Assembly (NCBI RefSeq): GCF_040932485.1
Contig: NZ_JBFRBH010000001.1
Coordinates: forward strand, 2,170,001 to 2,234,000
Reading direction: 5' to 3'
Origin: Gymnodinialimonas sp. 202GB13-11
Lineage (GTDB): Bacteria; Pseudomonadota; Alphaproteobacteria; Rhodobacterales; Rhodobacteraceae
DNA length: 64,000 nt
The notes under the pieces are model-generated. The model ran no database searches. It had not been told where the DNA came from and saw nothing but the letters and a program-made list of their open reading frames with translations. The position numbers were made by a program, and so were the translations under genes. Position 1 is the first letter of the stretch, and each line of letters starts with the position of its first letter. Below, piece after piece: positions 7,552 to 64,000 of the stretch.

Positions 7552-8483
7552 GTTCGCCTCCCCCGGTAGGTCAAGACTGCGCCCAGCATGACGACAGCCA
7601 CCATTACGACGCCCTCCACGATGGTGGTCACGTTCGGGTCCACGTTCGCGAGCGTCAAGATGGTGCGGATGATGCGCAGGATGAAGACCGCGATGATCGG
7701 CCCAAGCAGGCCACCACGCCCGCCGCCCAGCATGACGCCGCCCAGAACCACCGCCGCAACGGAGGCGAGCAGATAGGGGCCCGGCACGGGCTCTCCGATA
7801 CCGGTCAGCATGATGAGCGACAGGCCACCCATCGCAGCCAACACCCCGGCCAAGGCATAGGCTGCAACCTTGGTCCAGCCGACGGACACGCCAGAGCGGA
7901 AGGCTGCCAGTTCATCGGAGCCCACGGCATAAATCGACAGCCCCAGTTTGGAGCGGCGTATCGGCACCCAGACAAGCGCGATGGCAATCAGGATGACGAG
8001 CAAGGCGTTGGGAAGAAACGGAATAAGCGAGCCGTTGATAAGGCTCCGCAACCCCGGCGCGACCGTGCCGCCCGGCGTCTCAAGGATCAGCAGCGCCACG
8101 CCTTCCCACACAAAAAGCATGGCCAGTGTGACCACGATATCCGGCACCTTTGTGACCACGATCAACCCGCCATTGATCGCGCCCATCAGCCCGCCAAGGG
8201 CCAGTGTGATCGCCACGGCAGGCACCGCCCCTATGCTTTGCATCAGCACCGCCGCCGTCACCCCGCAGACCGCCATGATCGACGCAATAGACAGGTCGAT
8301 GCCCCCCACGATGACAACAATCGCCATGCCAGCGGTCGCAAACGCGAAGGGCAAAGCCGCGCGGGCGAGGCTTTCAAGCCCGGTTGCGCCAAAGCTCGGC
8401 TGGATCAGCTTGGTGACAATCAGCAGGACCGCCAGCAATGCCAGCAACCCCATCACCCAAGCGTTCTTGCGCACCACGCTCAT
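7548..8483 (-). CDS. CUT2-type sugar ABC transporter, second permease
   Basis: This 311-residue RbsC-family membrane protein shows the conserved VVIVGGIDLSIASIMAVCG segment near residue 60 and a GGVMLGGGRGGLLGPIIAVFIL segment near the C-terminus. Its start overlaps the stop of the ATPase gene by four bases and its stop overlaps the next permease start, so stoichiometric translation is likely. It probably pairs with the other permease to form the translocation pore. The family is well defined; the transported compound cannot be read from the sequence. Confidence 0.9.
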   Translation of the reverse strand: MSVVRKNAWVMGLLALLAVLLIVTKLIQPSFGATGLESLARAALPFAFATAGMAIVVIVGGIDLSIASIMAVCGVTAAVLMQSIGAVPAVAITLALGGLMGAINGGLIVVTKVPDIVVTLAMLFVWEGVALLILETPGGTVAPGLRSLINGSLIPFLPNALLVILIAIALVWVPIRRSKLGLSIYAVGSDELAAFRSGVSVGWTKVAAYALAGVLAAMGGLSLIMLTGIGEPVPGPYLLASVAAVVLGGVMLGGGRGGLLGPIIAVFILRIIRTILTLANVDPNVTTIVEGVVMVAVVMLGAVLTYRGRRT

Positions 8484-47179: not shown

Positions 47180-49054
47180 ATGACCGCTCAGGGCGAGACA
47201 ATTCGGCTGACCGTGGCCCAGGCCATTGTGCGCTACCTGATGAACCAGTTCATCGAGCTCGACGATGGGGACGAGGTGCGTATGTGCGGCGGTGGCTTTG
47301 GTATTTTTGGCCATGGCAATGTGCCGTGTTTGGGCGAAGCGCTTTACCCCGTCCAGGATGAATTGCCGCTTTATCGCGGGCAAAATGAACAAAGCATGGG
47401 TTTCGCAGCTGCGGCCTACGCCAAATATCACCTACGCCGCCGCTTCATGTTCTGCACCGCATCTGCAGGGCCCGGCACAGCGAATTTGCTGACGGCCTCT
47501 GCCCTTGCCCACGCGAACCGCCTGCCGATGCTTTTGCTGTGCGGCGATACGTTCCTGACGCGCCTTCCGGACCCGGTGCTGCAACAGTTGGAGCATTTCG
47601 GAAACCCGACCTTCGGCGTCAATGATGCGTTCAAAGCCGTCACGCGCTTCTGGGATCGGATCACCCATCCCGCGCAACTGATGCAATCCCTGCCGAACGC
47701 GATAAACACTATGCTGGACCCAGCCGATTGCGGGCCATGCTTCATTGGATTGCCTCAGGATTTGCAGGGGTATGCATATGATTACCCCGTCGAATTCTTT
47801 GAACGTCGTGTGCATCGTATCCGGCGTGCAATCCCTGACCCGGTAGAGGTTGCCGCGGCCGCGGCGCTTCTGAAATCCGCAAAGCGCCCTGTCATTATTG
47901 CAGGCGGCGGCGTTCAATATTCCGGCGCGGTCGAGGCCCTTGGTGCTTTGGCCGAGCGCCACGCCATCCCCGTGATCGAAACCATCGCCGGGCGGGCGAA
48001 CCTGACGGCGGATGATCCGCTCAACATCGGGCCGGTCGGCGTAACCGGATCTGACAGTGCGAATTGGACGGCTGAACGCGCAGATTTGATCCTGGCCGTC
48101 GGCACGCGGCTGCAGGACTTCACGACTGGGTCGTGGACGGCGTTTGCCAAGGACGCAAAGATCATCGGGCTGAATGCGGGCCGCTACGATGCAACGAAGC
48201 ATTTCAGCTTGCCAGTGGTTGGCGACGCAAGGCAAGGCATCGGAGCGTTGATGGAGGCCCTCGATGGGCACAAGGCACCGGAAAGCTGGCTTTCCGATTG
48301 CCAGGCAGAGCGGCGCAAATGGGATGCCTACGTTGCCGAGAACACAAAGGCTGGCAATGGTCCCAATTCCTACGCACAAGCCATTGGCACGGTAAACGCA
48401 CTTTGTGCGCCCGACGATCGTGTTGTGACGGCCGCTGGCGGGCTTCCCGCCGAAGTCACTGCAAACTGGCGCACGCAGTCGCCCGGAACCGTTGATGTTG
48501 AGTTCGGGTTCAGCTGCATGGGCTATGAAATCGCAGGCGGCTGGGGCGCACGAATTGCACAAAGTGAACGTGAGCCCACAGCAGACACAGTCGTTTTTGT
48601 CGGAGATGGCAGTTATCTTTTGATGAATTCAGACATTTACTCTAGCGTTCTGACGCAGAAGAAATTGATCATCCTCGTACTCGACAATGGTGGGTTTGCG
48701 GTGATCAACAAGCTGCAAAACAACACCGGCAACCAGAGCTTCAACAACCTGATCAAGGATTGCCCGACGGTGCCCGAGGCCTTCGCCGTGGATTTTGAGG
48801 GCCATGCCCAATCCATGGGCGCGGACGCCGTAACGGTCGCCAACCCGACCGAATTGGGTGAAGCATTCAAACGCGCAAAGGCATCAGACAAAACAAGCGT
48901 GATCGTGATGCAGGTGGACCCCTATGACGGCTGGACGAATGAAGGCCATACCTGGTGGGAGGTCGGCACGGCTCAGGTCTCGGACGATGCAAATGTCCGA
49001 GAGAAACACGCGGAATGGGAATCCGAGCGCGTCAAACAACGGCAGGGCGTGTGA
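47180..49054 (+). CDS. iolD: 3D-(3,5/4)-trihydroxycyclohexane-1,2-dione hydrolase
   Basis: This 624-residue thiamine-diphosphate enzyme has the cofactor-activating glutamate in LYRGQNEQSMGFAAAAYA, a central domain, and the metal/diphosphate motif GDGSYLLMNSDI near residue 475 ending with NGGF. Length and composition match IolD, which hydrolytically opens the ring of the diketone made by IolE to give 5-deoxy-glucuronate. A GGGGAGAG site precedes the ATG. It heads the plus-strand operon iolD-iolC-iolB-aldolase-iolG, and its stop overlaps the iolC start by one base. Acetolactate synthase is excluded by the neighbours and the sequence. Confidence 0.93.
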   Translation: MTAQGETIRLTVAQAIVRYLMNQFIELDDGDEVRMCGGGFGIFGHGNVPCLGEALYPVQDELPLYRGQNEQSMGFAAAAYAKYHLRRRFMFCTASAGPGTANLLTASALAHANRLPMLLLCGDTFLTRLPDPVLQQLEHFGNPTFGVNDAFKAVTRFWDRITHPAQLMQSLPNAINTMLDPADCGPCFIGLPQDLQGYAYDYPVEFFERRVHRIRRAIPDPVEVAAAAALLKSAKRPVIIAGGGVQYSGAVEALGALAERHAIPVIETIAGRANLTADDPLNIGPVGVTGSDSANWTAERADLILAVGTRLQDFTTGSWTAFAKDAKIIGLNAGRYDATKHFSLPVVGDARQGIGALMEALDGHKAPESWLSDCQAERRKWDAYVAENTKAGNGPNSYAQAIGTVNALCAPDDRVVTAAGGLPAEVTANWRTQSPGTVDVEFGFSCMGYEIAGGWGARIAQSEREPTADTVVFVGDGSYLLMNSDIYSSVLTQKKLIILVLDNGGFAVINKLQNNTGNQSFNNLIKDCPTVPEAFAVDFEGHAQSMGADAVTVANPTELGEAFKRAKASDKTSVIVMQVDPYDGWTNEGHTWWEVGTAQVSDDANVREKHAEWESERVKQRQGV

Positions 49055-50037
49055 TGGCGGATCACGTCCTCAGCGGCATCCGAGACGGGCGCTTTATTGT
49101 CGTCGGGCGGGTGGGTATGGACCTGTCGCCTGTGGATCGCAGCCGCACCGAAGATGCGACCGAGATGATGGTGGCCATGGGCGGCTCAAGCGCGAATATC
49201 GCTGCGGGGCTTGTGAAGCTGGGGCTCTCGGCTGACTTGGTGACGTGCGTGTCCGATGACGCGGTCGGGCGCTATTGCCTGAACCAGTTGGATGACTACG
49301 GCGTTGGACGAACGCATGTGCGCATCATCCAAGGTGAGGAGCGCACTTCGCTTGCTGTCTACGAGACGCGAGTGGAAGACCATCAATCAGTGATCTACCG
49401 AAACAATGCTGCTGATTTTCAGATGTCCCTGCAGGATGTTGAAGCTGTTGATTACAGCGCCTTTTCCGCCCTGATCACAGCGGGCACCGTATTCGCGGCA
49501 GAACCATCCCGCAGCGCCGCTTTTCGGGCTTTCGAGCTGGCACGTGAGGCTGGATTGCCCATCATCTTCGACGTGGACTACCGCCCTTATTCCTGGCCGT
49601 CGCCTGAGGTTGCAGCCGATGTCCTCTCGCGGGCCGGTGCCTTGTCGGATGTGATCGTGGGCAATGATGAAGAGTTTGGCTTTATGGCAGGCGATTTTTC
49701 CCAAGGCCTTGGCAAAGCGCGGGAATTGGCGGCCAGCACCGCATCCATCGTCGTCTACAAGATGGGACCGGAGGGTGCCGTGACCTTTACGGGCGACACC
49801 GAAACCCGCACCGGCATCTACAAGGTTGAGGCCGTCAAACCCACCGGTGCTGGCGATAGTTTCATGGCGGGCCTGCTTGCCGGATTGGCCGAGGACCGTC
49901 CGCTGAAAGAGGCCGTCCTGCGCGGCTCTGCCTGTGCCTCAATTGTTGTGGCACAACCCGGTTGCGCCCCCGCTATGCCCGATACAGACACGCTCGACCT
50001 CTTTTTGACCGAGCATCCCGGCCCAACAGCCGCCTGA
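49054..50037 (+). CDS. iolC: 5-dehydro-2-deoxygluconokinase
   Basis: The 327-residue PfkB-family kinase shows the N-terminal GRVGMDLSPVD strand, the GGSSANIAAGLVKLG substrate region, and the C-terminal catalytic motif PTGAGDSFMAGLLAGLAE with the aspartate base. It phosphorylates 2-deoxy-5-keto-gluconate. The ATG at 49054 overlaps the iolD stop by one base (TGATG). In some proteobacteria IolC carries a C-terminal DUF2090 aldolase domain; that domain is absent here, and the aldolase is a separate gene downstream. Confidence 0.92.
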   Translation: MADHVLSGIRDGRFIVVGRVGMDLSPVDRSRTEDATEMMVAMGGSSANIAAGLVKLGLSADLVTCVSDDAVGRYCLNQLDDYGVGRTHVRIIQGEERTSLAVYETRVEDHQSVIYRNNAADFQMSLQDVEAVDYSAFSALITAGTVFAAEPSRSAAFRAFELAREAGLPIIFDVDYRPYSWPSPEVAADVLSRAGALSDVIVGNDEEFGFMAGDFSQGLGKARELAASTASIVVYKMGPEGAVTFTGDTETRTGIYKVEAVKPTGAGDSFMAGLLAGLAEDRPLKEAVLRGSACASIVVAQPGCAPAMPDTDTLDLFLTEHPGPTAA

Positions 50038-50051
50038 CCAGGAGCGCGCCC

Positions 50052-50891
50052 ATGCATATCGCCCCCCACGACAATCAGAACAAAGCCATCGTCGATGTGG
50101 ACGATGCCCATGTGCCGCTGACCTATTTCAACATCGTGAAGCTGAAGGCGGGCGAGCATTTCGACTACAAGCTCGACGGGTATGAGACCTGTGTTGTGCC
50201 TGCAACGGGCACAGTGGATGTCGAGGTCGGGGGAGAGACCTTTGCCGAGATCGGCAATCGCGGCGCGGATGTGTGGGACGGCGACCCGGAGGGCGTCTAT
50301 GTGCCAACGGCCACAGGCGCGCGGATCACGGCGCGCACAGACACCGAGACGTTCATCGCCGGTGCCAAGTTTGCGGAGACGCTGACACCGTTCGCCGTGC
50401 GGTCGCATGAACTGGATCTGGTGCAGTACGGGTCGGACGACACCAAAACACATCGCAAAATCAAGCACATCCTTGGCGCAGGGCACCATGACCGCGTGGG
50501 CCGCTTGCTGGTATCGGAGCTATTCACCGTGGGCGCTGGTGGCTGGTCAGGCTTTCCATCGCACAAGCATGACACAGACCGATTGCCCGACGAGACGCGC
50601 CATGACGAGTGCTATAACTTCCGTTTCAAGCCGAACTATGGTTCGGGTCTGCAAATGCTCCAGCGGGAGGATAACAAGCCCGGTGACGCCTATCACATCA
50701 TGGATGGCTCAACCGTTCTGATCGACAAGGGCTACCATCCATGCTGCGCCCTGCCGGGCTACGAGATGTATTACTTCACCATTCTCGGTGGCCTGTCGCA
50801 GCGAAGTTTGAAGCAATACTTCCAGCCGACACATGCCGAACAACTTCACACCATTCCCGGCATCATGGACATGGTGGCTAAGTTCAAATGA
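50052..50891 (+). CDS. iolB: 5-deoxy-glucuronate isomerase
   Basis: This 279-residue IolB-type bicupin has the metal-binding FPSHKHDTDR segment and HPCCALPGYEMYYFTILGG near the C-terminus. It converts 5-deoxy-glucuronate to 2-deoxy-5-keto-gluconate. The ATG at 50052 has an AGGAG site and lies 14 bases after iolC; an ATG inside iolC at 49962 is rejected. It overlaps the aldolase gene by four bases. It differs strongly from the paralogue at 37.7-38.5 kb, so the two are not a recent duplication. Confidence 0.9.
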   Translation: MHIAPHDNQNKAIVDVDDAHVPLTYFNIVKLKAGEHFDYKLDGYETCVVPATGTVDVEVGGETFAEIGNRGADVWDGDPEGVYVPTATGARITARTDTETFIAGAKFAETLTPFAVRSHELDLVQYGSDDTKTHRKIKHILGAGHHDRVGRLLVSELFTVGAGGWSGFPSHKHDTDRLPDETRHDECYNFRFKPNYGSGLQMLQREDNKPGDAYHIMDGSTVLIDKGYHPCCALPGYEMYYFTILGGLSQRSLKQYFQPTHAEQLHTIPGIMDMVAKFK

Positions 50892-51727
50892 CGCTTGCGA
50901 CTCTGTCAGAGGTTCTTCAGCCCGCGCTGAAGGGTGGATATGCCGTGCCCGGTTTGGTCTGCCTCGGCTGGGAGGACATGCGCGCCTACGTGATGGCCGC
51001 GCAGGCCGAACGTGCGCCGGTGATCTTGCAAGCCGGACCATCGTGCCGCGAACACACGCCCCTACCCGTTTTGGGTAAGATGTTTCGGCATCTGGCCGAA
51101 GACGTCGACGTGCCGGTCGTGGCCCATCTCGATCATGGATATACAATGGAAGACTGCGAGGCGGCGCTGGAGGCGGGCTTCACGTCGCTCATGTTCGACG
51201 GATCGCGCAAGCCTTTGGAAGATAACGTGAAAGAGACGCGCGCGGTGGCGGACCTTGCGCATTCTGCGGGCATCTCTGCCGAGGGTGAGATTGGCTTTGT
51301 CGGCTATTCGGGCGGCGAAGACAGCGCGGGCACCGACCCAGCTGAGGCCGCGCTTTTTGCACGGGAGACAGGCGTTGACGCCATGGCGATCAGCGTTGGA
51401 AACGTTCACCTTCAGCAAGACCATGAGGGCGGCTTGGACGAGGCGCGCATTCGCGCGATTGAGGCTGCAACGGACGTGCCGCTGGTGATACACGGCGGGT
51501 CTGGTGTGCCCCACGACCAACGGCTTGCGCTGGCGCAGGGCTCGACCATCTGCAAATTCAACATCGGTACGGAGCTGCGCATGGCGTTTGGTGATGCGTT
51601 GCGGTCTGCAGTGAACAAGGACGCGGAGCGATTTGACCGCGTGCAGATCCTGAAAGAAACACATGACCCGGTGATGGAGGCGGCGCGGCTTGCGATCCGC
51701 TCCACCGGCGCCTCAGGGAGAGTTTGA
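50888..51727 (+). CDS. iolJ: Class II fructose-bisphosphate-aldolase-family protein, IolJ-like
   Basis: This 279-residue zinc aldolase has VVAHLDHGYTMEDCEAALEA with the zinc-binding histidine, SLMFDGSRKP, VIHGGSGVP and ICKFNIGTELRMAF. In the inositol operon it should cleave 2-deoxy-5-keto-gluconate-6-phosphate to dihydroxyacetone phosphate and malonate semialdehyde. Start and stop overlaps with iolB (ATGA) and one base spacing to iolG show tight coupling. A tagatose or fructose aldolase is the alternative; context favours IolJ. No malonate-semialdehyde dehydrogenase (iolA) gene is in the window. Confidence 0.85.
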   Translation: MTLATLSEVLQPALKGGYAVPGLVCLGWEDMRAYVMAAQAERAPVILQAGPSCREHTPLPVLGKMFRHLAEDVDVPVVAHLDHGYTMEDCEAALEAGFTSLMFDGSRKPLEDNVKETRAVADLAHSAGISAEGEIGFVGYSGGEDSAGTDPAEAALFARETGVDAMAISVGNVHLQQDHEGGLDEARIRAIEAATDVPLVIHGGSGVPHDQRLALAQGSTICKFNIGTELRMAFGDALRSAVNKDAERFDRVQILKETHDPVMEAARLAIRSTGASGRV

Positions 51728-51728
51728 A

Positions 51729-52715
51729 ATGATCCGCATTGGTTTGCTGGGGTGTGGCCGCATTGGCCAAGTCCATGCGCGCACGCTGAAAACGATGGAC
51801 GACGCACGCATCGTAGCGGTCGCGGATGCCATGCCCGCCGCGGCGCAATCGCTGGCTGAAGCCACGGGAGCGGAGGTGCGGGATACGGACGCGATCCCGA
51901 GCGCGAGCGACATCGACGCAGTTGTAATCGGCACTCCTACAGACACGCATTTCGCGCAGATCGAGGCGGCGACGAAGGCCGGTAAGGCGATCTTCTGCGA
52001 AAAGCCAGTGGACATGTCCGTTGACAACATCCGCACGCTGATGGCGGGCGTGGAGGCGGCGGACGTGCCCTTCTTCACCGCGTTCAACCGCCGGTTCGAT
52101 CCGAATTTCGCGGCCCTCCAGACACGGCTGCGCGCGGGCGAGATTGGGGCGGTTGAACTGATCCAGATCACATCACGCGACCCATCGCCGCCGCCGATTG
52201 GCTATATCAAAAGCTCGGGCGGGTTGTTTCGGGACATGATGATCCACGATTTCGACATGGCGCGGTTCCTGATGGGTGAGGAATTCACCACCGTTCATGC
52301 AGTCGGCTCCAGCCTTGTGGACCCTGAGATCGGCAAAGCGGGCGATGTGGATACAGCGGCGGTGACATTGACGACAGCGTCCGGGCGCATTTGCCAGATC
52401 TCAAACTCCCGCCGCGCTGCGTATGGCTATGACCAGCGGGTCGAAGTGCATGGGGCGGACGGAATGCTGCGGGCCGAGAACATCCTTGAGACATCCGTGG
52501 AAAGCGCAACGGCGGAGGGGTTCAAACGCTCCCCCACCCTGCACTTCTTCCTTGAACGGTACGAGGCGGCTTATGCGGCTGAGATGAAGGCATTCGTCGC
52601 GGCGGTCTCGGCCGGGGAGCAGCCGACACCCTCCATCCGTGATGGTCTACAAGCGCAAATTCTGGCGGATGCGGCGACACAGTCACGCGAAACCGGGCAG
52701 CCTGTGGTACTTTAA
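51729..52715 (+). CDS. iolG: myo-Inositol 2-dehydrogenase
   Basis: The 328-residue Gfo/Idh/MocA protein starts MIRIGLLGCGRIGQVHARTL, has IFCEKPVDMS as EKP motif, and contains GGLFRDMMIHDFDMARFLMG with the catalytic aspartate-histidine pattern of inositol dehydrogenases. The ATG at 51729 has GGGAGAG upstream. It ends the iolDCBJG operon. It oxidises myo-inositol to 2-keto-myo-inositol with NAD. The last bases overlap a small convergent gene by four bases. Confidence 0.92.
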   Translation: MIRIGLLGCGRIGQVHARTLKTMDDARIVAVADAMPAAAQSLAEATGAEVRDTDAIPSASDIDAVVIGTPTDTHFAQIEAATKAGKAIFCEKPVDMSVDNIRTLMAGVEAADVPFFTAFNRRFDPNFAALQTRLRAGEIGAVELIQITSRDPSPPPIGYIKSSGGLFRDMMIHDFDMARFLMGEEFTTVHAVGSSLVDPEIGKAGDVDTAAVTLTTASGRICQISNSRRAAYGYDQRVEVHGADGMLRAENILETSVESATAEGFKRSPTLHFFLERYEAAYAAEMKAFVAAVSAGEQPTPSIRDGLQAQILADAATQSRETGQPVVL

Positions 52716-54460: not shown

Positions 54461-55234
54461 ATGAAAAGCAGTTTTCGTCAGACAGAAATCCTCGACATTG
54501 CGCGGCGCGAGGGCAAGGTGACGGTCGAAGGGCTGGCCGCCCATTTCGACGTGACGGTGCAAACCATCCGACGTGACCTGAGCGATCTGGATGAGGCGCG
54601 GCAGCTGAATCGGGTGCATGGGGGGGCCGTTCTGGCCTCTGGCACATCGAACGTGGCCTATGGTGAGCGGCGCGAATTCCTTGCCGAGGAAAAAGCCGCC
54701 ATGGCACGCCTATGTGCGGCGCAAATCCCGAATGATTGCGCGGTCTTCCTGAACATTGGCACAAGCACCGAGGCTGTCGCGGCTGAGTTACTGACCCACA
54801 CGGGCCTGTTGGTTGTGACCAACAATATGAACGTGGCCCACACACTGGACCGCAACCCGGACTGCGAGGTGATCGTCACCGGCGGCACCTTGCGCAGGGG
54901 CGATGGTGGGTTGATCGGGGCAATGACGGTCGACGCGATCCGGCGGTTCAAGTTCGACTATGCCGTGATGGGCTGTTCGGCTTTGGACGCAGAAGGCGAC
55001 GTGCTCGATTTCGACATCCAAGAGATCGGCGTGAGCCAAGCCATCATCGCGCAGGCACGGGTTCCGGTTCTGGTCGCAGACCATTCCAAATTCCAACGCA
55101 GCGCACCGGGGCGCATTTGTTCACTGGCGGATATGCACACGCTGATAACCGACCGCCCGTTGGCCCCGGCTTTGGCTGCATCATGCCGGAATTGGCAAAC
55201 GGCCGTGTTGGTCGCGGATGGGTTCGCGACTTAA
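54461..55234 (+). CDS. DeoR/GlpR-family transcriptional regulator
   Basis: The 257-residue protein has a DeoR helix-turn-helix (RQTEILDIARREGKVTVEGLAAHFDVTVQTIRRDLSDLD) and a sugar-phosphate-sensing domain with FLNIGTSTEAVA, NNMNVAHTL and GCSALDAEGDVLDFD. The ATG at 54461 has GGAG upstream. It resembles GlpR-like members that sense phosphorylated polyols. It is divergent from the decarboxylase and convergent with the dimethylglycine-dehydrogenase-like gene, so its target is not obvious; the last bases overlap that gene by four bases. Confidence 0.85.
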   Translation: MKSSFRQTEILDIARREGKVTVEGLAAHFDVTVQTIRRDLSDLDEARQLNRVHGGAVLASGTSNVAYGERREFLAEEKAAMARLCAAQIPNDCAVFLNIGTSTEAVAAELLTHTGLLVVTNNMNVAHTLDRNPDCEVIVTGGTLRRGDGGLIGAMTVDAIRRFKFDYAVMGCSALDAEGDVLDFDIQEIGVSQAIIAQARVPVLVADHSKFQRSAPGRICSLADMHTLITDRPLAPALAASCRNWQTAVLVADGFAT

Positions 55235-57666
55235 CCTCTGACCTTCGAAAAATCAGGATCGTAGGGGCTAGGGGCGATGACGCGCGCTTTAACCATTTCG
55301 CCGCATAGATCGAGGTCCATTGTTGTGCCCTCCGTCGCCATCTCTGGGTCCACGAACGCATAAGTCAAGTTCAGGCCGACGCGATGTCCCCAGTCGCCAG
55401 ACGTGATGGTGCCAACAACCTGTGCACCCTGCATCAACGAAGCACCGCCATGGGCAGGCGCGTGGTCTGTGCCGATATGCAAAGTCACAAGTTGCTTCCT
55501 CGGTCCAGCCTCTTTCTGCGCCAGCAAGGCGTCCCGCCCCACGAAGTCGCCCTTATCCAATTTCACGAACCGCGAGAGGCCAGTCTCAAACGGGTCAAAT
55601 TCCGTCAGGATATCTGCCTTCCAATGCAGGAAGCCTTTCTCCATGCGCATCGACTCCACCGAGCGCGCCCCGAACAACGTCATGCCATGGGCTTGACCCG
55701 CTTCTCGCAGAGCCAGATAGGCGGCGTAGAGGGAGGCGTTGGGGACGTGGATTTCATAGGCCAATTCACCCGAAAAGCTGACGGCCATAATCGTCGCGGG
55801 TGCTAAGCCGATAAAGGCCTCGCGGACGCTGAGCCACGGGAAAGTCTCAGCCGACCAATCCCCGCGCGCGCAGGCAGACAGCACATCGCGCGCCGTTGGG
55901 CCTGCCAGCACGAGGATCGTCTGATCGTTGGTGAGCGAGCGGATCTGAACATCCTCATCGTCGCGCAAATGGGCGGTAAGCCAATCCATGTCATGATATT
56001 CCGCCGCCGCCGCAGAGCCGTACCAGAGCCTGTCGGGCCCGCGATCACTGGCCGGTAGATTGGCGAACGTCGCCTCTGACCTCAGCATCCCGTGATGGTT
56101 GAGAAGGTAGCCAAGACCAACCCGTCCCTGCCGCCGTGTGACGGTGCCGCAGCACATGCGATCCAGGAAAACGTGGCGATCAGCGCCCGTGATTTCGAAC
56201 CGATTGAACCCGTTAACCTCACACAACCCAACGCCCGATTGCACCGCGGCAACCTCAGCCGCGACGATGTCGAAGGTTTCGTCAAAGTCGAAGGTCAGGG
56301 AGGGGTGAAAATCAGGGGAATGCTTGAAGTAGTCGACCCGTTCCCACCCATTCACCACGGTGAATTCGGCCCCTTCGGCCGCCAGAACAGGTGTCAGCGG
56401 CGTTGTCTTCGCTGGGCGGCCCGCCGGGCGATGTTCGTGCGGGAAGTGGAAACGGAATTCGTTCTGGTAATCCTCAATCGCCTTGAGTGCCGTCAACTCC
56501 ACGTTTGCGTGGCCTGTGAAGCGGCGCGGATCGAGGCACCAAGTGTCGTAGCAGGCCTCTCCGTGGACGATCTGCTGCGCCAGAAGCCAGCCATGGCCAC
56601 CGCCCTCACCCACACCTGCGCGCAGGCCAATGATACAGAACGCGTTGCGTTTGCCGGGGATTGGCCCGACCAAAGGCGCGCCGTCGATGGTGTAAGTGAT
56701 GGGACCATTCACAATCCGCTTGATGCCAACTTCAGTAAGCGCCGGCATCCGCGCAAACGCGCCCTCCAGCACATCCATCACCCGATCCAGATCATCAGGG
56801 CACAGATCGTTTGAGAAGGCCGGGCTGATCCCGTCCATACCCCAGGTTTTGCAATCCTGTTCGTAGAAGCCGACCAGAAGACCGTCCTTTTCCTGACGAG
56901 AGTAGTAATCGCTGATCGGGCAACGCAGCAACGGCATACGGTGGCCCGCCTCGGCGATGGCGGGGATGTCGTCGGTTACAAAATACTGATGCTCCATCGA
57001 CGCGACAGGGTGGTGCACGCCCATCATGGCTCCCACCTCGTTCACGCGGTAGCCGCAGGCGTTCACGACAATGTCCGCATCGATATCGCCGTTGTCCGTA
57101 TGGACCGTCCAGGTGTCATCGCCATGTTGTGTCAGCCCGGTCACATCCGTCGAACGATAGACCTCTGCCCCCGCCTTTCGGGCGTGAAACGCCAGCGCCT
57201 GACAGAGCTGCGCGGGATCGATATCGCCGTCTTCACCGTCCCAAAGTCCACCAAGCAGATTGTCGGTTGAAATCAGCGGATGGCGGCGCGCGCATTCCTC
57301 AGCATCAATCACCTCGAACTCGACGCCCATGCCACGCGCCATGGAGGCGAAGTGGCGATAGCCCTGCATCTGCGCCTCGGTATTGGCGAGGCGAATGCCA
57401 CCGTCCCCGTGATGATAGCCCACGGGGTAATCCGGATCGTCCCGCAGTTTCTTATAAAGCGCGATGGAATGGCTTTTCAGGCCAACCATCGTCTGGTTCA
57501 TCCCAAAATTCGTGACCTGAGCTGCGGAGTGCCAAGTGGTGCCAGACGTCAGTTCATCGCGCTCGATCAGGACAACATCAGACCAGCCTTCTTGTACAAG
57601 ATGATACAGGGTCGAGCATCCGGCGATGCCGCCACCGATCACTACGACTTTTGTGCGCGATTTCAT
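55231..57666 (-). CDS. Dimethylglycine/sarcosine dehydrogenase-like FAD protein with GcvT domain
   Basis: This 811-residue protein has an N-terminal FAD domain (VVVIGGGIAGCSTLYHL), the TSGTTWHSAAQVT stretch whose histidine carries covalent FAD in dimethylglycine and sarcosine dehydrogenases, and a GcvT folate domain from about residue 430 to the end (SPYDPDF). It oxidatively demethylates an N-methylated amine and hands the carbon to tetrahydrofolate. It is 64 bases downstream of the reductive dehalogenase gene in the same direction, so it may share the transcript or have its own promoter in that gap. It is a second copy of the fold seen at the left edge of the window. Confidence 0.87.
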   Translation of the reverse strand: MKSRTKVVVIGGGIAGCSTLYHLVQEGWSDVVLIERDELTSGTTWHSAAQVTNFGMNQTMVGLKSHSIALYKKLRDDPDYPVGYHHGDGGIRLANTEAQMQGYRHFASMARGMGVEFEVIDAEECARRHPLISTDNLLGGLWDGEDGDIDPAQLCQALAFHARKAGAEVYRSTDVTGLTQHGDDTWTVHTDNGDIDADIVVNACGYRVNEVGAMMGVHHPVASMEHQYFVTDDIPAIAEAGHRMPLLRCPISDYYSRQEKDGLLVGFYEQDCKTWGMDGISPAFSNDLCPDDLDRVMDVLEGAFARMPALTEVGIKRIVNGPITYTIDGAPLVGPIPGKRNAFCIIGLRAGVGEGGGHGWLLAQQIVHGEACYDTWCLDPRRFTGHANVELTALKAIEDYQNEFRFHFPHEHRPAGRPAKTTPLTPVLAAEGAEFTVVNGWERVDYFKHSPDFHPSLTFDFDETFDIVAAEVAAVQSGVGLCEVNGFNRFEITGADRHVFLDRMCCGTVTRRQGRVGLGYLLNHHGMLRSEATFANLPASDRGPDRLWYGSAAAAEYHDMDWLTAHLRDDEDVQIRSLTNDQTILVLAGPTARDVLSACARGDWSAETFPWLSVREAFIGLAPATIMAVSFSGELAYEIHVPNASLYAAYLALREAGQAHGMTLFGARSVESMRMEKGFLHWKADILTEFDPFETGLSRFVKLDKGDFVGRDALLAQKEAGPRKQLVTLHIGTDHAPAHGGASLMQGAQVVGTITSGDWGHRVGLNLTYAFVDPEMATEGTTMDLDLCGEMVKARVIAPSPYDPDFSKVRG

Positions 57667-57730: not shown

Positions 57731-60700
57731 TCAGAGGTCCAGTTCGATAACTCCGCCCGGGGCTGCCGCGCGCGATTGGCAGGTGATGATCGACGACTCC
57801 CGCTGCGCCTTTGACAGGACGAAATCGCGATGCTCGACCTCGCCAGCCACAACGCCGCATTTGCACACACCGCAGATCCCGTCGGAACACTTCAGGTCCA
57901 CCGGAATGCCGTTTTCGATCAAGACATCCGCCACTGTCTTTTCGACGGGGACGATCAATTCCTTGCCCGATTGGGTCAGTTTGATGGTGAAAGGGTGGTT
58001 TTCATAGTCCGGGGCCTCGGGCACAGAGAAGTATTCAAGATGCCGGTTCTCTTCGGGGAATCCAGCAGCTTCGGCCACCTGCATCACGGCCGTCATGTAG
58101 GGCTCCGCCCCGCAGGTGTAGACATGCGCGCCGTCGCTATGGCGCAGGATCGCGGCGAGGTCGGCACGGGTCCCCTCGGATGAGATATGCAATGCTACAC
58201 GATCCGCCCACGGCGCGTGGCGCAGGTGGTCCAGATACCCCATCGTTGCCCGTGTTCGGCATGAATAGTGCATCTCGAACGGTCGCCCCAAGGCGTGCAG
58301 CCGGTGGGCCATGGCGACCATCGGCGTAATGCCGATACCGCCGCCCATCAGGTACGTCATCGACGCCTCTTCATGCAGCGGGAAGTGGTTGATGGGTTTG
58401 GAGATGAAGACCTTGCGCCCTTCGTTGAAGATCCGATGCAGCAGCGCCGATCCGCCCTGGCCCGCCGCCTCCCGCAACACGCCGATCTGGTATTTCGACC
58501 GATCCGCCGGGTCGCCGGACATGGAATACTGACGCAGGAATTCCGGGGCCACGACGATATCGAGATGCGCACCGGCCTCCCATGCCGGCAGCTCGCTGCC
58601 ATCAAGGCTGGCGAATTCGTAGATCGTTATATCCTCGGCGGTCTGCTCGGCCTTAGTGATCTGCACCCGCAGGACCGGGCTCTCGTCGTAGTCGCGGGTC
58701 TTGTGGGCGGGATCGTCGCCGCGGGCGAGGCGCGCCTTGTATTCTTCGGCGGTGATCATGGCCTGATAGGCTTCAATCCCCGCCTCACGGTCCATAAGGT
58801 ACGGGTAAGGGTATGGGTGCGGCACAAGTGGCGCGGGGTAGACCGCAAGCGTCTGATCCTCGTAGCGCAGGTCCAGGTCTTTCTGGAGACCGCGTGCGTT
58901 CACGGGCTTTTTCGTGGGCCGGTAGCCGCCATCTTCTTCGATCTCGAGATCCCACCACCATTTCTTGGTGGGGTTCAGGTCACCCCTGTTCAGCAGATCA
59001 TCCAGCTTGGCCAGCGCCGGAGCCGAGCCGGGTACCTTCATCGCTGTCCAACGAAACACCGCATCCCCCAGCACACCCTCAAGGTTCCACGGACAGGTCT
59101 TCATACAACGGCCGCACATCGCGCCGCCCTCGGTCGTAATCCGGTAGGTGGCGCATTTCTGGCTATCTGATTTCCAGATCTCGTAGCCGTTGAACATCAG
59201 CTTCGGACCCGCCGTGATGGCACCAGACGGGCACTCACGCGCGCATTTCTTGCAGGCCTCACAAAAGCTTTGCAGGCCGAAGTCGATGGGCTTGTCATGG
59301 GCCAATGGAAGGTCTGTCGTGACCACACCCGATTTCAGGCGCGGGCCTAGATAGGGGTTCAGGATGACCTCGCCGATGCGGCTGACTTCGCCCAACCCGC
59401 TCAGCAGCAGAAGCGGTGGTTGAAGAACCTCTCCATCCATCACCGAATGCGCCTTCGCCTTGTAGCCGAGATTGCGCAATTGGCGCGCGATCACTCCGCC
59501 AAGCAGGGAAAAGCGCAGATAAGCGCGCATGGATTGCGCAACGCTGATCCAGTCATCGCCCGAGGCCCCCTCCATCGTCTCGAACCCCTGATCGATGATC
59601 ATCGAGATCGCATTGTCATGGGGTGGGTCGATGGGCTCCCCTGCCGCGTCGTGGGAATACCATGTCCAATCCGGGCACCGGCTCAGGCCAACCGCATCCA
59701 CGCCCAGAAAGTAACTCGTGGCCTTCACAAGTTCTGCCGCGTGTTGCGGATCGAGCTGAGCCTTTTGTGGCGCGGCAGCACCATCTTGTAGAAGAACGAA
59801 GGCCCCGAGTGCCCGTCGCTGCGCCGAAGATGGCGCGGACTTGCGCACGTAATGTCCGCCTTTCGCCCCATCCTGCAGCGGCTTGCCCATATCGCCGAAT
59901 TGCGCCCGTGCGAACATGTCCGATCGTTTCGGCACGCGCGGCACGCGGGCTTCGTCGATGAACGTGGTGGGGACCTCGACACGCTTAAGCGTTTCAAACG
60001 GATGGGCACCGTCGACAAACCTGCGCTTAGCATAAGCTTTGGGCGAGACCGGCAAGACTGCGTCTGGGTTGAGTGGCCTATCGGACGCAATTGCGAAGCT
60101 CGTTGTAATCGCCGCAATCCCAAACCCATGCCCGATAAACGGCGCTTGCAACCCGTCCCCATCCGGCACAGCAAGCCCCGCTGCAACGGCAAGGCGGTTT
60201 AGGTCGACGTCCGAAGTTGAGGCGGTATGCGCCCGCGCGTCATGCCCCAAAACCCGCAGGTAGTTCGCGATGACCACAGCCGTTTCTGCAGCTAACAGGC
60301 TTGAGCGATGGTCGATTGCATCACTGATCCAATCGCTGCCGGGTTCATCTGCCTCTGGCGCGCGGGGATGCTCATAAAGAAACACAATCGCGTGGGTGTG
60401 GTCGTCGATCGTCGTTGGCGGGGCCTCCATCGACTCCTTGAGGTCGGCCATGATCAGGTCGATACCGGAAGCCAGTGTCTTGGTCTGCCGGGTACGAAGG
60501 TCGTCGGCCAGCCGCGCGATATCGGGGTTCAGGTGCGGTTGAATAAGCAACGCATCGGGCGGCAGAGCGCATGTCCCGACCAGTGACGCATCTGCAAAAT
60601 ACCCAAACGCTTTCAGATGATTGGCGCGTTCTTGTGGATCTGCCGGAGCCTCCGCGACTGCCTTATTGATCAGCCCATCTCGGATTGCATCCAACATGGC

Positions 60701-60877
60701 GGCATGGTCGCGCATCGCGTTGACGACCGATTGCGGGCGATGATCGTAGGCGTAGGACAATGGTTGGAAGGGCGCCACAAAGGAAAGGCTCACCGCATCG
60801 GATCGTTCCAGTTTCTCAACCCGGTAGCGCCCAAGATGCACGGGCCGGCCTTTGTCAGAGAAGATGCGAAATCCCAT
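57731..60877 (-). CDS. Self-sufficient reductive dehalogenase fused to NAD(P)H flavin/[2Fe-2S] reductase
   Basis: The 1048-residue protein joins a corrinoid reductive-dehalogenase (RdhA) domain to a phthalate-dioxygenase-reductase-like module. The RdhA part ends with two [4Fe-4S] motifs: Cys539, 542, 545, 549 and Cys575, 588, 591, 595. The reductase part has the flavin motif RQYS at 782-785, the pyridine-nucleotide motif GGGIGITP at 845-852, and plant-type [2Fe-2S] cysteines at 997, 1002, 1005 and 1033. There is no twin-arginine signal and no rdhB anchor gene, so it is cytoplasmic and catabolic, like BhbA, NpRdhA and the fused enzyme of Jhaorihella. Ortho-halogenated phenols are the known substrates of that group. 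Upstream genes encode aromatic-ring enzymes. It needs cobalamin. Confidence 0.92.
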   Translation of the reverse strand: MGFRIFSDKGRPVHLGRYRVEKLERSDAVSLSFVAPFQPLSYAYDHRPQSVVNAMRDHAAMLDAIRDGLINKAVAEAPADPQERANHLKAFGYFADASLVGTCALPPDALLIQPHLNPDIARLADDLRTRQTKTLASGIDLIMADLKESMEAPPTTIDDHTHAIVFLYEHPRAPEADEPGSDWISDAIDHRSSLLAAETAVVIANYLRVLGHDARAHTASTSDVDLNRLAVAAGLAVPDGDGLQAPFIGHGFGIAAITTSFAIASDRPLNPDAVLPVSPKAYAKRRFVDGAHPFETLKRVEVPTTFIDEARVPRVPKRSDMFARAQFGDMGKPLQDGAKGGHYVRKSAPSSAQRRALGAFVLLQDGAAAPQKAQLDPQHAAELVKATSYFLGVDAVGLSRCPDWTWYSHDAAGEPIDPPHDNAISMIIDQGFETMEGASGDDWISVAQSMRAYLRFSLLGGVIARQLRNLGYKAKAHSVMDGEVLQPPLLLLSGLGEVSRIGEVILNPYLGPRLKSGVVTTDLPLAHDKPIDFGLQSFCEACKKCARECPSGAITAGPKLMFNGYEIWKSDSQKCATYRITTEGGAMCGRCMKTCPWNLEGVLGDAVFRWTAMKVPGSAPALAKLDDLLNRGDLNPTKKWWWDLEIEEDGGYRPTKKPVNARGLQKDLDLRYEDQTLAVYPAPLVPHPYPYPYLMDREAGIEAYQAMITAEEYKARLARGDDPAHKTRDYDESPVLRVQITKAEQTAEDITIYEFASLDGSELPAWEAGAHLDIVVAPEFLRQYSMSGDPADRSKYQIGVLREAAGQGGSALLHRIFNEGRKVFISKPINHFPLHEEASMTYLMGGGIGITPMVAMAHRLHALGRPFEMHYSCRTRATMGYLDHLRHAPWADRVALHISSEGTRADLAAILRHSDGAHVYTCGAEPYMTAVMQVAEAAGFPEENRHLEYFSVPEAPDYENHPFTIKLTQSGKELIVPVEKTVADVLIENGIPVDLKCSDGICGVCKCGVVAGEVEHRDFVLSKAQRESSIITCQSRAAAPGGVIELDL

Positions 60878-60955
60878 TTGGTGTCAGTCCATTCCACAGC
60901 AGAGGGTGTCTACATGCACCTTCCACCTGAACCGGCAGTAATGGCAATGGGTGCG

Positions 60956-61141
60956 CTACGGCGCCGCTGCTTTCAACGCGTCGCGCAAGACGTCTCGGTC
61001 ACCAATATGATTTGCCAGGATCAGGATCAGCCGGGCGTTCAAAGCGTCGGATTGATCTTTGGTCAACCCCTGATGAGCGGCCAAAAGCTCATCATAGAAG
61101 CCATCGGGATCGGGGATGTTGGGCTGGGTGTTTAGTGTCAT
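60956..61141 (-). CDS. DUF2783 small protein
   Basis: This 61-residue protein (MTLNTQPNIPDPDGFYDELL, then DQSDALNARLILILANHIGD) matches the DUF2783 family, a short helical protein usually encoded next to a class A flavin hydroxylase. Its ATG overlaps the hydroxylase stop by four bases, so it is likely a partner or stability factor of that enzyme. A 78-base gap separates it from the dehalogenase gene. Its function is unknown. Confidence 0.8.
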   Translation of the reverse strand: MTLNTQPNIPDPDGFYDELLAAHQGLTKDQSDALNARLILILANHIGDRDVLRDALKAAAP

Positions 61142-62739
61142 ATCTGGCCTGTCGCGATTTTGAGGGCGGCTTGAACCGCAGCTTCATCGGCCACTGCCCA
61201 TCGGGCAACGACGTGCTGGTCTGGGCGGATCAGGTAAAGCGCCTGCGCGGCCTCCCCCATGTAGCGGGACCGCAGTTCGTCTGTCAGGTCGTCGTCCATC
61301 AAGGTGAGTGTGCCGATGGGCAAGTCGGTGGCGACCTCAGGGGCCTTTATGCCCAAGCCAAGCAGTGTAAAGCGGCCCGGAAGGCGATCCAACAGGAACC
61401 CGTCGGCCATCGGCGCATCGGGACACGGGCTGCCTGGACGTGTTCTTGCGGGAGCGTCCAATCCGTCTGGACCGTTCAGGTAAAGGCCGTCGTAAGTACA
61501 CGGCACTGACAGCCGCCCTGAATTGACCATGGGCCGCGCGAAGGCGTGATCCTTGGCCAGCGTCAGAACCGCATTGCGGAAGATCTTAGACATCTCGGAT
61601 TTTGGCGTCAGGAAATCCGTCGCGCGGGTGGAGTTGAGGATGTTCTCATCCGCAGCGTAGGCGCGCTCTTCATGATAGCTGTCGAGCAGAGCTTCCGGCG
61701 CAAGCCCCTTCAGGACAAGGTCCAATTTCCACGCCAGATTATCGGCATCCTGCATCCCGGAATTTGCGCCGCGCGCGCCGAACGGGCTGACCTGATGGGC
61801 GCTGTCGCCTGCAAACAGGACGCGTCCATGGCGGAACCGTTCCATCCGGCGACACTGGAAGGTGTAGATTGAGGTCCAGACCAGCTCGTATTCCGTGCCC
61901 TTGGGGAGGAATTCGTCGATCCGCTGCCGGATGCGCCCCTCCTCCAATTCCGCCTTGCGGTCAATGTCCCAGCCAAGTTGGAAATCAATCCGCCAAACGT
62001 CATCTGGCTGCTTATGCAGGAGGGCAGATTGCGGCGCCTCGGCCAAGGGCGGCTCGAACCAGAACCAGCGTTCAGTCGGGAAATCGGCGGTCATGCGAAC
62101 GTCGGCGATCAGGAAATTGTCTTCGAACACACGGCCATCGAAGCTGAGGCCCAACATCTCGCGCGTCGGAGACCGCGCGCCATCGCAGGCAATGACGTAG
62201 TCGGCGTTCAGTTGGTACGGCCCGTCAGGCGTGTCTATGTCGAGGGTGACCTTGTCACCGTCTTGCGTGAGTCCCGTCACGACATTGCGGCCGCGGATTT
62301 CGATGGGCTTACCATCGTTTTCCGCGCGGCGAAGCGCGTCGATTAGGAATTTCTCGAAATAGGGTTGCTGGAGGTTGATGAAAGCTGGGTTCTTATGGCC
62401 GTCCTCGGGCAGAAGATTGAAGTTGAATACCTCGCCATCGCCATGGAAGACGCGGCCCAAATTCCACACGACGCCCTTGTCGACCATGCCGGCCCCTGCC
62501 CCAAGCCGATCTGCAATCTCCAGCGTGCGCTTGGCAAAACAGATCGCGCGGGAGCCCTGGCCGACGCCTTCGTGGTCATCAAGGATCAACGCGGGCGTGC
62601 CCTTCTGTGCCAGATCAAGGCCAGTCGCTACGCCAACCGGGCCGCCGCCGATGATGACGACGGGGTGATGCCCGGCCCGCGCGGTGACCGGGTTGAAAGG
62701 ATAGAGTTCGTGAGCAAGGGCGTAGGTGGCACCGACCAT
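61138..62739 (-). CDS. Class A FAD-dependent aromatic hydroxylase (MhpA/PcpB-like)
   Basis: The protein has an N-terminal FAD loop (VVIIGGGPVGVATGLDLAQ), RAICFAKRTLEI, a middle DG-type region (YVIACDGARSPTREMLG), the second FAD motif GDSAHQVSPFGARGANSGMQD and a C-terminal thioredoxin-like region. This is the phenol/3-hydroxyphenylpropionate/pentachlorophenol hydroxylase family, which adds a hydroxyl to a phenolic ring using NAD(P)H and oxygen. The ATG at 62739, with GGAG seven bases upstream, gives 533 residues; longer starts at 62751 or 62835 are less supported. With the dehalogenase and fumarylacetoacetase genes it suggests conversion of a phenol to a dihydroxylated ring-cleavage substrate. 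Confidence 0.87.
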   Translation of the reverse strand: MVGATYALAHELYPFNPVTARAGHHPVVIIGGGPVGVATGLDLAQKGTPALILDDHEGVGQGSRAICFAKRTLEIADRLGAGAGMVDKGVVWNLGRVFHGDGEVFNFNLLPEDGHKNPAFINLQQPYFEKFLIDALRRAENDGKPIEIRGRNVVTGLTQDGDKVTLDIDTPDGPYQLNADYVIACDGARSPTREMLGLSFDGRVFEDNFLIADVRMTADFPTERWFWFEPPLAEAPQSALLHKQPDDVWRIDFQLGWDIDRKAELEEGRIRQRIDEFLPKGTEYELVWTSIYTFQCRRMERFRHGRVLFAGDSAHQVSPFGARGANSGMQDADNLAWKLDLVLKGLAPEALLDSYHEERAYAADENILNSTRATDFLTPKSEMSKIFRNAVLTLAKDHAFARPMVNSGRLSVPCTYDGLYLNGPDGLDAPARTRPGSPCPDAPMADGFLLDRLPGRFTLLGLGIKAPEVATDLPIGTLTLMDDDLTDELRSRYMGEAAQALYLIRPDQHVVARWAVADEAAVQAALKIATGQI

Positions 62740-62813
62740 TTTCTTCTCCATCTTTTGGGCGTCAGCCCCTCCTCGGCTCAGCATCCTGACGGGGCGCAAA
62801 AACGCCTCGCAGC

Positions 62814-63764
62814 TTAGCCCTGCAACGCCTCCCACATCTCAATATCGCGCTTGTCGGTCCAGATACGCGGGTGGTCCAGACCGCGGGCCTCGTCATAAGC
62901 GCGAGCGACGTTGAAGGGGAGACAGTGTTCGTAGATCGCGTAATCCGCAAATTTTGGATCGCAGGCCTCGCGCACCGCATCCCACGCATCTTTGAGCGAG
63001 CCGTTTTTTGCGGCCACGCGGGCGGCAGGGCGGTAAGTGCTATCGACGAAATCGCGCGTGGATTCGATGGCTTTGTTCACCATGTCCTGTCCTATTAGTG
63101 CATCGCCGCGGCCCGGCGCGATGGCATCCACGTCAAAGGCCTTGATGGCGTCGAGGGTGGTACCCCAATCGGCGAAGTGACCGTCTCCGCAATAACAGGC
63201 CGAGTGATATTCGACGATGTCACCGGTGAACATCACGTTGGCGTCCGGTACATGGATCACGGCATCGCCCGCCGTGTGGGCGCGGCCCAGATGCTTGATG
63301 TCGATGCGCCGGTTGCCGAGATAGACCGTCATAGCGTCGGAGAAGGTCGTGGTCGGGTAGGTCAAGCCGGGAATGCTCTCATGGCCTTCGAACAGGCGCG
63401 GGAACCGTTGGAATTCGCTGTCCCAATCCTCCTGCCCACGCTCCACAACCATGGAACGGGCCGTGTCAGACATGATGATCTGATCCGCTCCATAGGCAGA
63501 TGCGCCGAGGACACGGACGGCATGGTAGTGGGTGAGCACGAGGTGGGAGATCGGCTTGTCGGTTACCGTGCGGACGCAGTCGATGACCTTTTGCGCCAGT
63601 CGCGGGGTGGCCTGCGCCTCAACGATCATAACGCTGTCGTCGCCGATGATGACACCGGAATTGGGATCGCCCTCGGCTGTGAAAGCATAAAGCCCATCCC
63701 CGATCTCATCGAAGGTAATCTTCTTCTCGGTCATATCCCCTTGGGAGGCGAAGGCTTTTGCCAT
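62814..63764 (-). CDS. Metallo-beta-lactamase-fold protein with only one complete metal site
   Basis: The 316-residue MBL-fold protein has lost part of the standard ligands. The HxHxDH motif reads HYHAVR (His79 and His81 kept, Asp and His replaced by Val83 and Arg84). His163 (RAHTAGD) and Asp182 (FTGD) are present, but the final histidine is Arg219 (PGRGD). So the first metal site is complete and the second is largely missing. It is 78 bases downstream of the fumarylacetoacetase stop and 74 bases upstream of the hydroxylase start. A hydrolase or lactonase acting on an aromatic intermediate is possible; the reaction is unknown. Confidence 0.8.
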   Translation of the reverse strand: MAKAFASQGDMTEKKITFDEIGDGLYAFTAEGDPNSGVIIGDDSVMIVEAQATPRLAQKVIDCVRTVTDKPISHLVLTHYHAVRVLGASAYGADQIIMSDTARSMVVERGQEDWDSEFQRFPRLFEGHESIPGLTYPTTTFSDAMTVYLGNRRIDIKHLGRAHTAGDAVIHVPDANVMFTGDIVEYHSACYCGDGHFADWGTTLDAIKAFDVDAIAPGRGDALIGQDMVNKAIESTRDFVDSTYRPAARVAAKNGSLKDAWDAVREACDPKFADYAIYEHCLPFNVARAYDEARGLDHPRIWTDKRDIEMWEALQG

Positions 63765-63842
63765 GGCATGTTGTCCTGTTTCGGTTTTTCTGGGGCCAGT
63801 GGCAGACGCCTCTGGCAGGTATAGTGTGGGAAAAAAGCTTGC

Positions 63843-64000
63843 TCAGTGTGCGAATGGGTCTTCGGCGGCTGCAAGGACTGTACCGACGCAGTGGCCGAAG
63901 CCGATGCGGTAGCCGTTGCCGTGGGCACTGCCATGCAGGGCGAGGGTGTCGCCATCCTCAATGAAGGAGCGGGGGCCGGAATCAGTTTCAATCGGTTCTT
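63843..64000 (-). CDS. Fumarylacetoacetase-like protein, C-terminal fragment (5' truncated by window edge)
   Basis: The last 51 codons of a minus-strand gene are visible, reading RSFIEDGDTLALHG and then GYRIGFGHCVGTVLAAAED before a stop at 63843-63845. The DGD-x-L-x-x-x-G and G-x-R-I-G-F-G-x-C-x-G-T-V-L pattern matches the C-terminus of fumarylacetoacetase, which hydrolyses the last intermediate of the homogentisate pathway. The start lies beyond the window. It is followed by the MBL-fold gene after 78 bases. Other FAH-superfamily hydrolases cannot be excluded from this fragment. Confidence 0.7.
   Translation of the reverse strand, partial: EPIETDSGPRSFIEDGDTLALHGSAHGNGYRIGFGHCVGTVLAAAEDPFAH

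Follow-up and report, generated by a model that had tools for sequence, protein, structure and literature searches.

Three described reductive dehalogenases and one gene cluster for aromatic catabolism are the points of reference for rdhA, a minus-strand gene in a 64,000-nucleotide stretch (hereafter the window) of the Gymnodinialimonas sp. 202GB13-11 genome (contig NZ_JBFRBH010000001.1, positions 2,170,001 to 2,234,000). By description, the basis of this comparison, JtRdhA of Jhaorihella thermophila resembles the window protein in its domain order, its fused reductase, its named catalytic residues and its likely dependence on NADPH (PMC10463259, cited here, like PMC7565698, PMC3053370 and PMC13101508, for the sections consulted); it debrominates 3-bromo-4-hydroxyphenylacetate, and those sections mention no operon context for it. 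BhbA of Comamonas sp. 7D-2 (WP_015585978, plasmid pBHB) is 49.8% identical to the window protein over residues 3–1048 and is likewise encoded within a ring-cleavage cluster, adjoining protocatechuate 4,5-dioxygenase genes, so that there is precedent for an RdhA in such a setting; it differs in that the associated route is meta-cleavage of protocatechuate instead of homogentisate degradation, and in being plasmid-borne with insertion sequence elements close by. NpRdhA of Nitratireductor pacificus (4ras, 6zxu, 6zy1) shares the fold of the RdhA part and the residues S422, M423, Y426, K488, R552 and F291, but it has no fused reductase (PMC10463259) and differs from the window protein at six pocket positions. 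The mhaAB-hmgABC genes of Pseudomonas putida U and Paraburkholderia xenovorans LB400, also compared by description, encode a flavoprotein of 560–566 residues (MhaA of P. putida U has accession AAY16572) with a 60-residue partner, located by the homogentisate genes in LB400; the sections consulted mention neither an rdhA nor a metallo-beta-lactamase (MBL) gene there (PMC3053370).

In the window genome, rdhA is the last of seven genes whose first three encode the predicted central pathway of homogentisate degradation. We hold it to be probable, on balance, that the gene for an NAD(P)H-driven, cobalamin-dependent and probably oxygen-tolerant self-sufficient RdhA was recruited, in this genus, to the end of a homogentisate operon, where its product would feed ring cleavage. 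An initial annotation, made from the letters of the window, had already proposed a fused RdhA within a phenolic ring-cleavage operon, and that core stands, since a fused RdhA does end a genuine homogentisate operon; its view that such proteins are rare does not, and its preferred substrate sits poorly with the routes present in the genome. A literature search, judged largely by titles, returned no published link between a reductive dehalogenase and a homogentisate operon or its regulator; relative to the literature searched, the homogentisate placement of rdhA, its recurrence and its link to a regulator are new, whereas the enzyme itself is a further member of a known family.

The operon and its dehalogenase

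The genes, all on the minus strand, are as follows, with positions above 64,000 given in window-extended coordinates.

65862-67217, minus strand: hmgA (TIGR01015, 624 bits, cut-off 511)
65093-65731, minus strand: maiA (TIGR01262, above cut-off)
63843-64000, minus strand: 3' end of fah (fumarylacetoacetase), its last 52 codons; the gene extends to 65093
62814-63764, minus strand: MBL-fold metallohydrolase, 316 residues (PF00753), a recurrent neighbour in the module
61138-62751, minus strand: mhaA-like aromatic hydroxylase dependent on flavin adenine dinucleotide (FAD), about 537 residues (PF01494; PRK08132, 741 bits, cut-off 416)
60956-61141, minus strand: DUF2783 protein, 61 residues (PF10932, 108 bits, E 1.7e-31), overlapping the mhaA-like gene by 4 bases
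57731-60877, minus strand: rdhA, an open reading frame of 1048 residues, predicted self-sufficient catabolic reductive dehalogenase by profile, structure-relative and residue matches

Profile matches confirm each of the neighbours that the initial annotation had placed in line with rdhA, and the sequence to the right of the window, where it had advised looking for homogentisate 1,2-dioxygenase and a regulator, completes the set hmgA-maiA-fah-MBL-mhaA-DUF2783-rdhA; hmgA is there, and no regulator was seen directly at the operon. The complete Fah has 416 residues (TIGR01266, 490 bits, cut-off 375), and with HmgA, MaiA and Fah all above their equivalog cut-offs, the predicted central pathway is complete, in line with the homogentisate-type route that had been suggested. 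From hmgA to rdhA the intergenic gaps are 130, −1, 78, 62, −4 and 78 bp, taking the start of the mhaA-like gene as the ATG that we set by hand at 62751. A sequence scan detected no promoter- or terminator-like site in the gap between the DUF2783 gene and rdhA, and we infer that the genes are co-transcribed.

MhaA (566 residues) and its 60-residue coupling protein MhaB constitute a 3-hydroxyphenylacetate 6-hydroxylase that yields homogentisate (PMC3053370). The pairing of an FAD hydroxylase with a 61-residue DUF2783 protein beside hmg genes fits that published description, on which the comparison rests, and by this analogy the pair may be MhaAB-like, with the DUF2783 protein as a putative MhaB-like coupling protein. 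A paper retrieved for DUF2783 concerns, by its title, denitrification. The trio of MBL, hydroxylase and DUF2783 genes was present in all three plasmid records examined: that of Sulfitobacter pontiacus (L263) adds hmgA, that of Dinoroseobacter shibae (L265) adds hmgA, fahA and paa genes, and that of Sphaerotilus adds fahA.

The domain architecture read from the window sequence is borne out. RdhA consists, with approximate boundaries, of a vestigial N-terminal half (residues ~1–300), a half for the corrinoid and two [4Fe-4S] clusters (~300–720) and a flavin/NAD(P)H/[2Fe-2S] reductase (~735–1043). It scores 184.9 bits against the NCBIfam reductive dehalogenase model TIGR02486 (cut-off 160.35), and profile searches place the double-cluster Fer4 domain at residues 539–598 and Fer2 at 969–1037. 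Its nearest solved relatives by sequence are the NpRdhA chains 6zxu and 4ras (E ~3e-153; 3.5e-153 for 4ras), matched over residues 159–719 and an N-terminal stretch, 3–108; the vestigial duplication of the cobalamin domain is present, in that residues 3–108 and those from 159 onward both align to the N-terminal half of NpRdhA. Residues ~732–1043 match phthalate-dioxygenase-reductase-like chains, including 2pia. The cysteines of the two [4Fe-4S] clusters (C539, C542, C545, C549 and C575, C588, C591, C595) are invariant in all 33 aligned proteins, as in the same alignment are those of the [2Fe-2S] cluster of the reductase module (C997, C1002, C1005, C1033). The catalytic set is Y453, K515 and R579 together with S449, and the equivalents of NpRdhA F291, S422, M423, Y426, K488 and R552, which are reported to serve in substrate binding, proton donation or lining of the site (PMC7565698, PMC10463259), are identical in the window protein and in 120/120 aligned relatives. 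Six other pocket positions of NpRdhA (F290, K307, F310, P311, A419 and N452) are M, A, Y, V, V and V here, changes that are mostly common to the fused RdhA set. Judged by reading the residues alone, the N-terminus (MGFRIFSDKGRPVHLG) contains no twin-arginine motif. An AlphaFold model with a mean predicted local distance difference test score (pLDDT) of 70, which is too weak for pocket comparison and was used for fold matching, aligns to 4ras over ~750 columns in Foldseek (TMt 0.77) and recovers the same two groups as the sequence search, NpRdhA and the phthalate-dioxygenase-reductase-like chains. On these sequence matches, we file the window protein with the self-sufficient catabolic RdhAs of the JtRdhA and BhbA kind.

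Some observations concern the surroundings of the enzyme. The MBL-fold protein is 89–96% identical across the hmg loci of the genus and 86% identical in L191, a metagenome-assembled genome of the Rhodobacteraceae considered below. MBL enzymes usually carry the motif HxHxDH; this protein has HYHAVR in that place. Plasmid-borne hmgA, MBL, hydroxylase and DUF2783 genes occur together in two Rhodobacterales, Sulfitobacter pontiacus and Dinoroseobacter shibae. A downstream gene resembling dimethylglycine dehydrogenase (55231-57666) was considered as a member of the unit and set aside, since of the four genomes with rdhA in the operon one lacks a match to it next to rdhA.

Recurrence of the linkage and mobility of rdhA

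Far from being rare, as had been supposed, fused RdhA occurs in 112 of 295 genomes sampled from the family, one per genus, and in 13/13 genomes of the window's own genus, where the 12 other copies are 72–90% identical to that of the window and an mhaA-like hydroxylase is also universal (13/13). In the family sample 130 genomes passed the E-value threshold, the remainder being reductase-only, unfused or fragment matches; those not counted include G033 (44%, no reductase) and the reductase-only or fragment matches of G160, G096, G212 and others. A class-wide sample gave an RdhA at E 1e-150 in 9 of 385 genomes, five of these from the same family, and at least 524 relatives were present among 595 pattern matches in named genomes. 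Wide occurrence of bhbA homologues across the Roseobacter clade has been described (PMC13101508).

Within the genus, rdhA lies directly behind the DUF2783 gene, in the same seven-gene order, in four of the 13 genomes, and in these four species it has been kept at 85–90% identity. Among the best 80 of the at least 524 named relatives, a set that is non-random and partly overlaps the family sample, three have an hmg-linked rdhA: Rhodobacterales bacterium HKCCE4037 (L182), which probably corresponds to genus member G298, L200, and the metagenome-assembled genome L191. The last has the identical seven genes in identical order, and the RdhA tree puts its protein outside the clade of the genus. In approximately unbiased (AU) tests, a single clade of L191 with the four in-operon copies of the genus was rejected (p 0.000248; log-likelihood 342 worse), and a clade of the four genus copies by themselves was compatible with the data (p 0.564). 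Most simply, one and the same operon slot would have been filled on two occasions, once in the genus and once in L191.

In L038 and L200, the latter the sister of family genome G294, rdhA is divergent from the hmg-mha genes, and in L094 it lies 1.7 kb from mhaA. (The gene immediately preceding rdhA in L094, at 6898-8247 on the plus strand, encodes an arylsulfotransferase-family protein, PF14269; it shares the strand of rdhA and lies opposite the pair formed by mhaA and the DUF2783 gene.) The two genes are within 5 kb of each other in 2 of the 90 other family genomes holding both and within 10 kb in 3 of the 90, compared with 0.23 and 0.45 expected if they were placed at random in a genome of 4 Mb (p 0.022 and 0.011, by a rough Poisson test with distance cut-offs picked after the data had been seen). 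Across the 295 genomes, 91 hold both genes, 21 rdhA only, 92 mhaA only and 91 neither; this co-occurrence (odds ratio 4.3, p 8e-8, ignoring ancestry and genome size) lends weak support to the linkage.

A further connection is provided by a MarR regulator, whose gene separates hmgA from rdhA in both L038 and L200. At E up to 1e-25, 110/295 family genomes contain a match to this regulator, and in 62 of the 77 MarR-positive genomes that were comparable (MhaA rows below G224, and rows beyond those listed, being left out) it is within 8 kb of mhaA; this MarR subfamily is therefore the usual neighbour of hmg-mha genes. It adjoins rdhA in four loci, L038, L200, L183 and L259. In Epibacterium ulvae U95 (L183, 13317-13751, minus strand) and Jannaschia marina (L259, 13204-13602, plus strand), a search of the genome at E up to 1e-20 gave no copy other than the one beside rdhA, and no hmg-module gene was matched within 10 kb of the MarR-rdhA pair.

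The surroundings of rdhA were collected for 111 other family genomes (112 loci, one of them unfused; a second place in G139 was left out). A strong mhaA match was present within ~8 kb in three, G294 (divergent, with hmgA), G027 (divergent) and G007, and 23 of the 111 loci are cut short by a contig end less than 8 kb away on one side or both. Neither clustering nor Pfam counts yielded a family-wide conserved neighbourhood, the largest shared neighbour cluster comprising 12 of 113 compared loci, and full-length relatives occur on eight plasmid records. With its location so varied, rdhA is a gene that travels, and its substrate is not defined by any single neighbourhood.

Weighing the explanations

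Several observations weigh against recruitment of RdhA into the homogentisate pathway. In nine of the 13 genus genomes, rdhA stands outside the operon, at least 13.6 kb away or on another contig (13.6 kb in G295, ~24–26 kb in G301 and G302, and in the others a greater distance or a different contig), and 108 of the 111 other family loci have no strong mhaA match within ~8 kb; as rdhA is mostly kept without this linkage, no single substrate follows. The 97 immediate upstream neighbours scanned out of 110 (12 frames were dropped as very short and one as very long) included 15 MarR and five LysR genes, the remainder being mixed, and Pfam counts showed no enriched aromatic-catabolism family among them. 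The MarR gene is near rdhA in just 1 of 58 family-sample genomes compared, using a partial list of rdhA genes; L183 and L259 were drawn from the non-random best 80 of at least 524 relatives; and in the window genome itself the MarR of the hmg-mha type is at C1:3790685, far from the operon, followed by an apparent ABC-transporter set. The four in-operon genomes of the genus may represent one event, giving two in-operon events in total, and the L191 arrangement could alternatively have arisen if the operon was transferred and its rdhA was exchanged afterwards. There is a terminator-like site at the junction of the MBL and mhaA-like genes, from a scan that is near chance level (12 sites vs 8.3 expected, standard deviation 2.8). 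Because of this site and the loci limited by contig ends, our confidence in the recruitment of RdhA is slightly lowered.

A rival explanation is that a mobile, self-contained, broad-range debrominase simply landed behind the hmg-mha operon and is expressed by read-through, in which case what it produces would not have to pass into homogentisate degradation. The varied location of the gene, its presence in the operon in only four of 13 genus genomes, the small size of the largest neighbour cluster, the plasmid-borne relatives and the broad substrate range of JtRdhA (PMC10463259) all favour such hitch-hiking. However, a passive insertion accounts poorly for the occupation of the identical slot by a separate lineage in L191, for the divergent pairs of L038 and L200, for a proximity to mhaA that exceeds rough chance, for the hmg-type MarR adjoining rdhA and for retention in four species, and we judge it rather unlikely. 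At the other extreme, the seven genes might together make up a single aerobic pathway dedicated to a phenylacetate or homogentisate that is brominated in nature, in which RdhA would act on bromo-3-hydroxyphenylacetate or bromo-homogentisate ahead of MhaAB, HmgA, MaiA and Fah, and rdhA genes located elsewhere in related bacteria would respond to the MarR signal of the homogentisate genes; this stronger version of recruitment we offer as tentative.

Two further explanations change the role or the identity of the enzyme. RdhA could protect the pathway by dehalogenating compounds such as bromo-homogentisate and bromo-hydroquinones, analogues that would otherwise block HmgA or give rise to toxic quinones, and open no growth substrate. 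Its placement within a central pathway operon and the activity of the class on ortho-halophenols (PMC10463259) agree with this; homogentisate halides are not in the JtRdhA substrate table in the sections consulted (PMC10463259), the present data do not separate protection from nutrition, and we consider a purely protective role improbable. That the protein is another corrinoid reductase, such as a QueG-like enzyme, is suggested by a weak match to the QueG family within the domain (24.5 bits against a cut-off of 200), but the reductive dehalogenase model scores far above it, the NpRdhA catalytic set is intact and the identity to BhbA is close to one half, which leaves this identity very improbable.

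The second genomic match considered as a QueG proved to be a short reductive dehalogenase homologue of ~419 residues, encoded outside the window (L005 7703-8962, minus strand; C1:1652702-1653961). Part of it scores 171.6 bits against TIGR02486, above the cut-off, and it has the motifs CEECDVCAVACP and CAICMRVCP, the latter also printed for Ros_A3X954 (PMC13101508); by reading, a glucose-6-phosphate dehydrogenase-like gene is nearby. At 47180-52715 on the plus strand, the window also holds a myo-inositol catabolism cluster with IolD (TIGR04377), an IolC domain (TIGR04382) and IolG (TIGR04380) above cut-off and an IolB-like gene (TIGR04378) below it.

Candidate substrates and their significance

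If RdhA works as NpRdhA and JtRdhA do, electrons from NADPH would pass through the flavin and [2Fe-2S] cluster of the fused reductase to the two [4Fe-4S] clusters and on to cobalamin, which would take an ortho halogen, probably bromine or iodine, off a phenol, with Tyr453, Lys515 and Arg579 giving the proton and holding the phenolate. The specificity of the class is for ortho-halophenols; JtRdhA, assayed with commercially available compounds only, acts best, and about equally fast, on 3,5-dibromo-4-hydroxybenzoate and 3-bromo-4-hydroxyphenylacetate; the chlorinated compounds with which it was tested were not turned over (PMC10463259).

The proposal in the initial annotation of a halogenated 4-hydroxyphenylacetate fits those data on JtRdhA. 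However, the window genome has no match to the HpaB family, which disfavours 4-hydroxyphenylacetate, and has instead 4-hydroxyphenylpyruvate dioxygenase (HPPD) and the MhaAB-like pair, along with a single hmgA. Since routes to HmgA exist from 3-hydroxyphenylacetate (if MhaAB is rightly named), from homogentisate and from tyrosine or 4-hydroxyphenylpyruvate, these rank higher, and we infer that halogenated 3-hydroxyphenylacetate, homogentisate or tyrosine would be the better fit. A halogenated 3-hydroxyphenylacetate could be dehalogenated by RdhA and then 6-hydroxylated by MhaAB; RdhA could dehalogenate a halogenated homogentisate itself; or a halogenated tyrosine or 4-hydroxyphenylpyruvate could be dehalogenated ahead of HPPD. 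All three routes would finish through HmgA, MaiA and Fah in fumarate and acetoacetate. PobA, which is also present, gives products of the 4-hydroxybenzoate type another outlet, a further point against recruitment of RdhA into the homogentisate pathway. The operon link suggests a substrate without proving one.

The literature consulted names no natural substrate for the self-sufficient RdhAs (PMC10463259, PMC13101508, in the sections cited), and the recurrent link to an operon and a regulator narrows the candidates to a short, directly testable list. Were the seven genes indeed one dedicated pathway, the widespread RdhA clade of the Rhodobacteraceae would gain a natural substrate; the link to homogentisate degradation, if true, would mean that the turnover of natural organobromines is tied to the catabolism of tyrosine and hydroxyphenylacetate in common bacteria.

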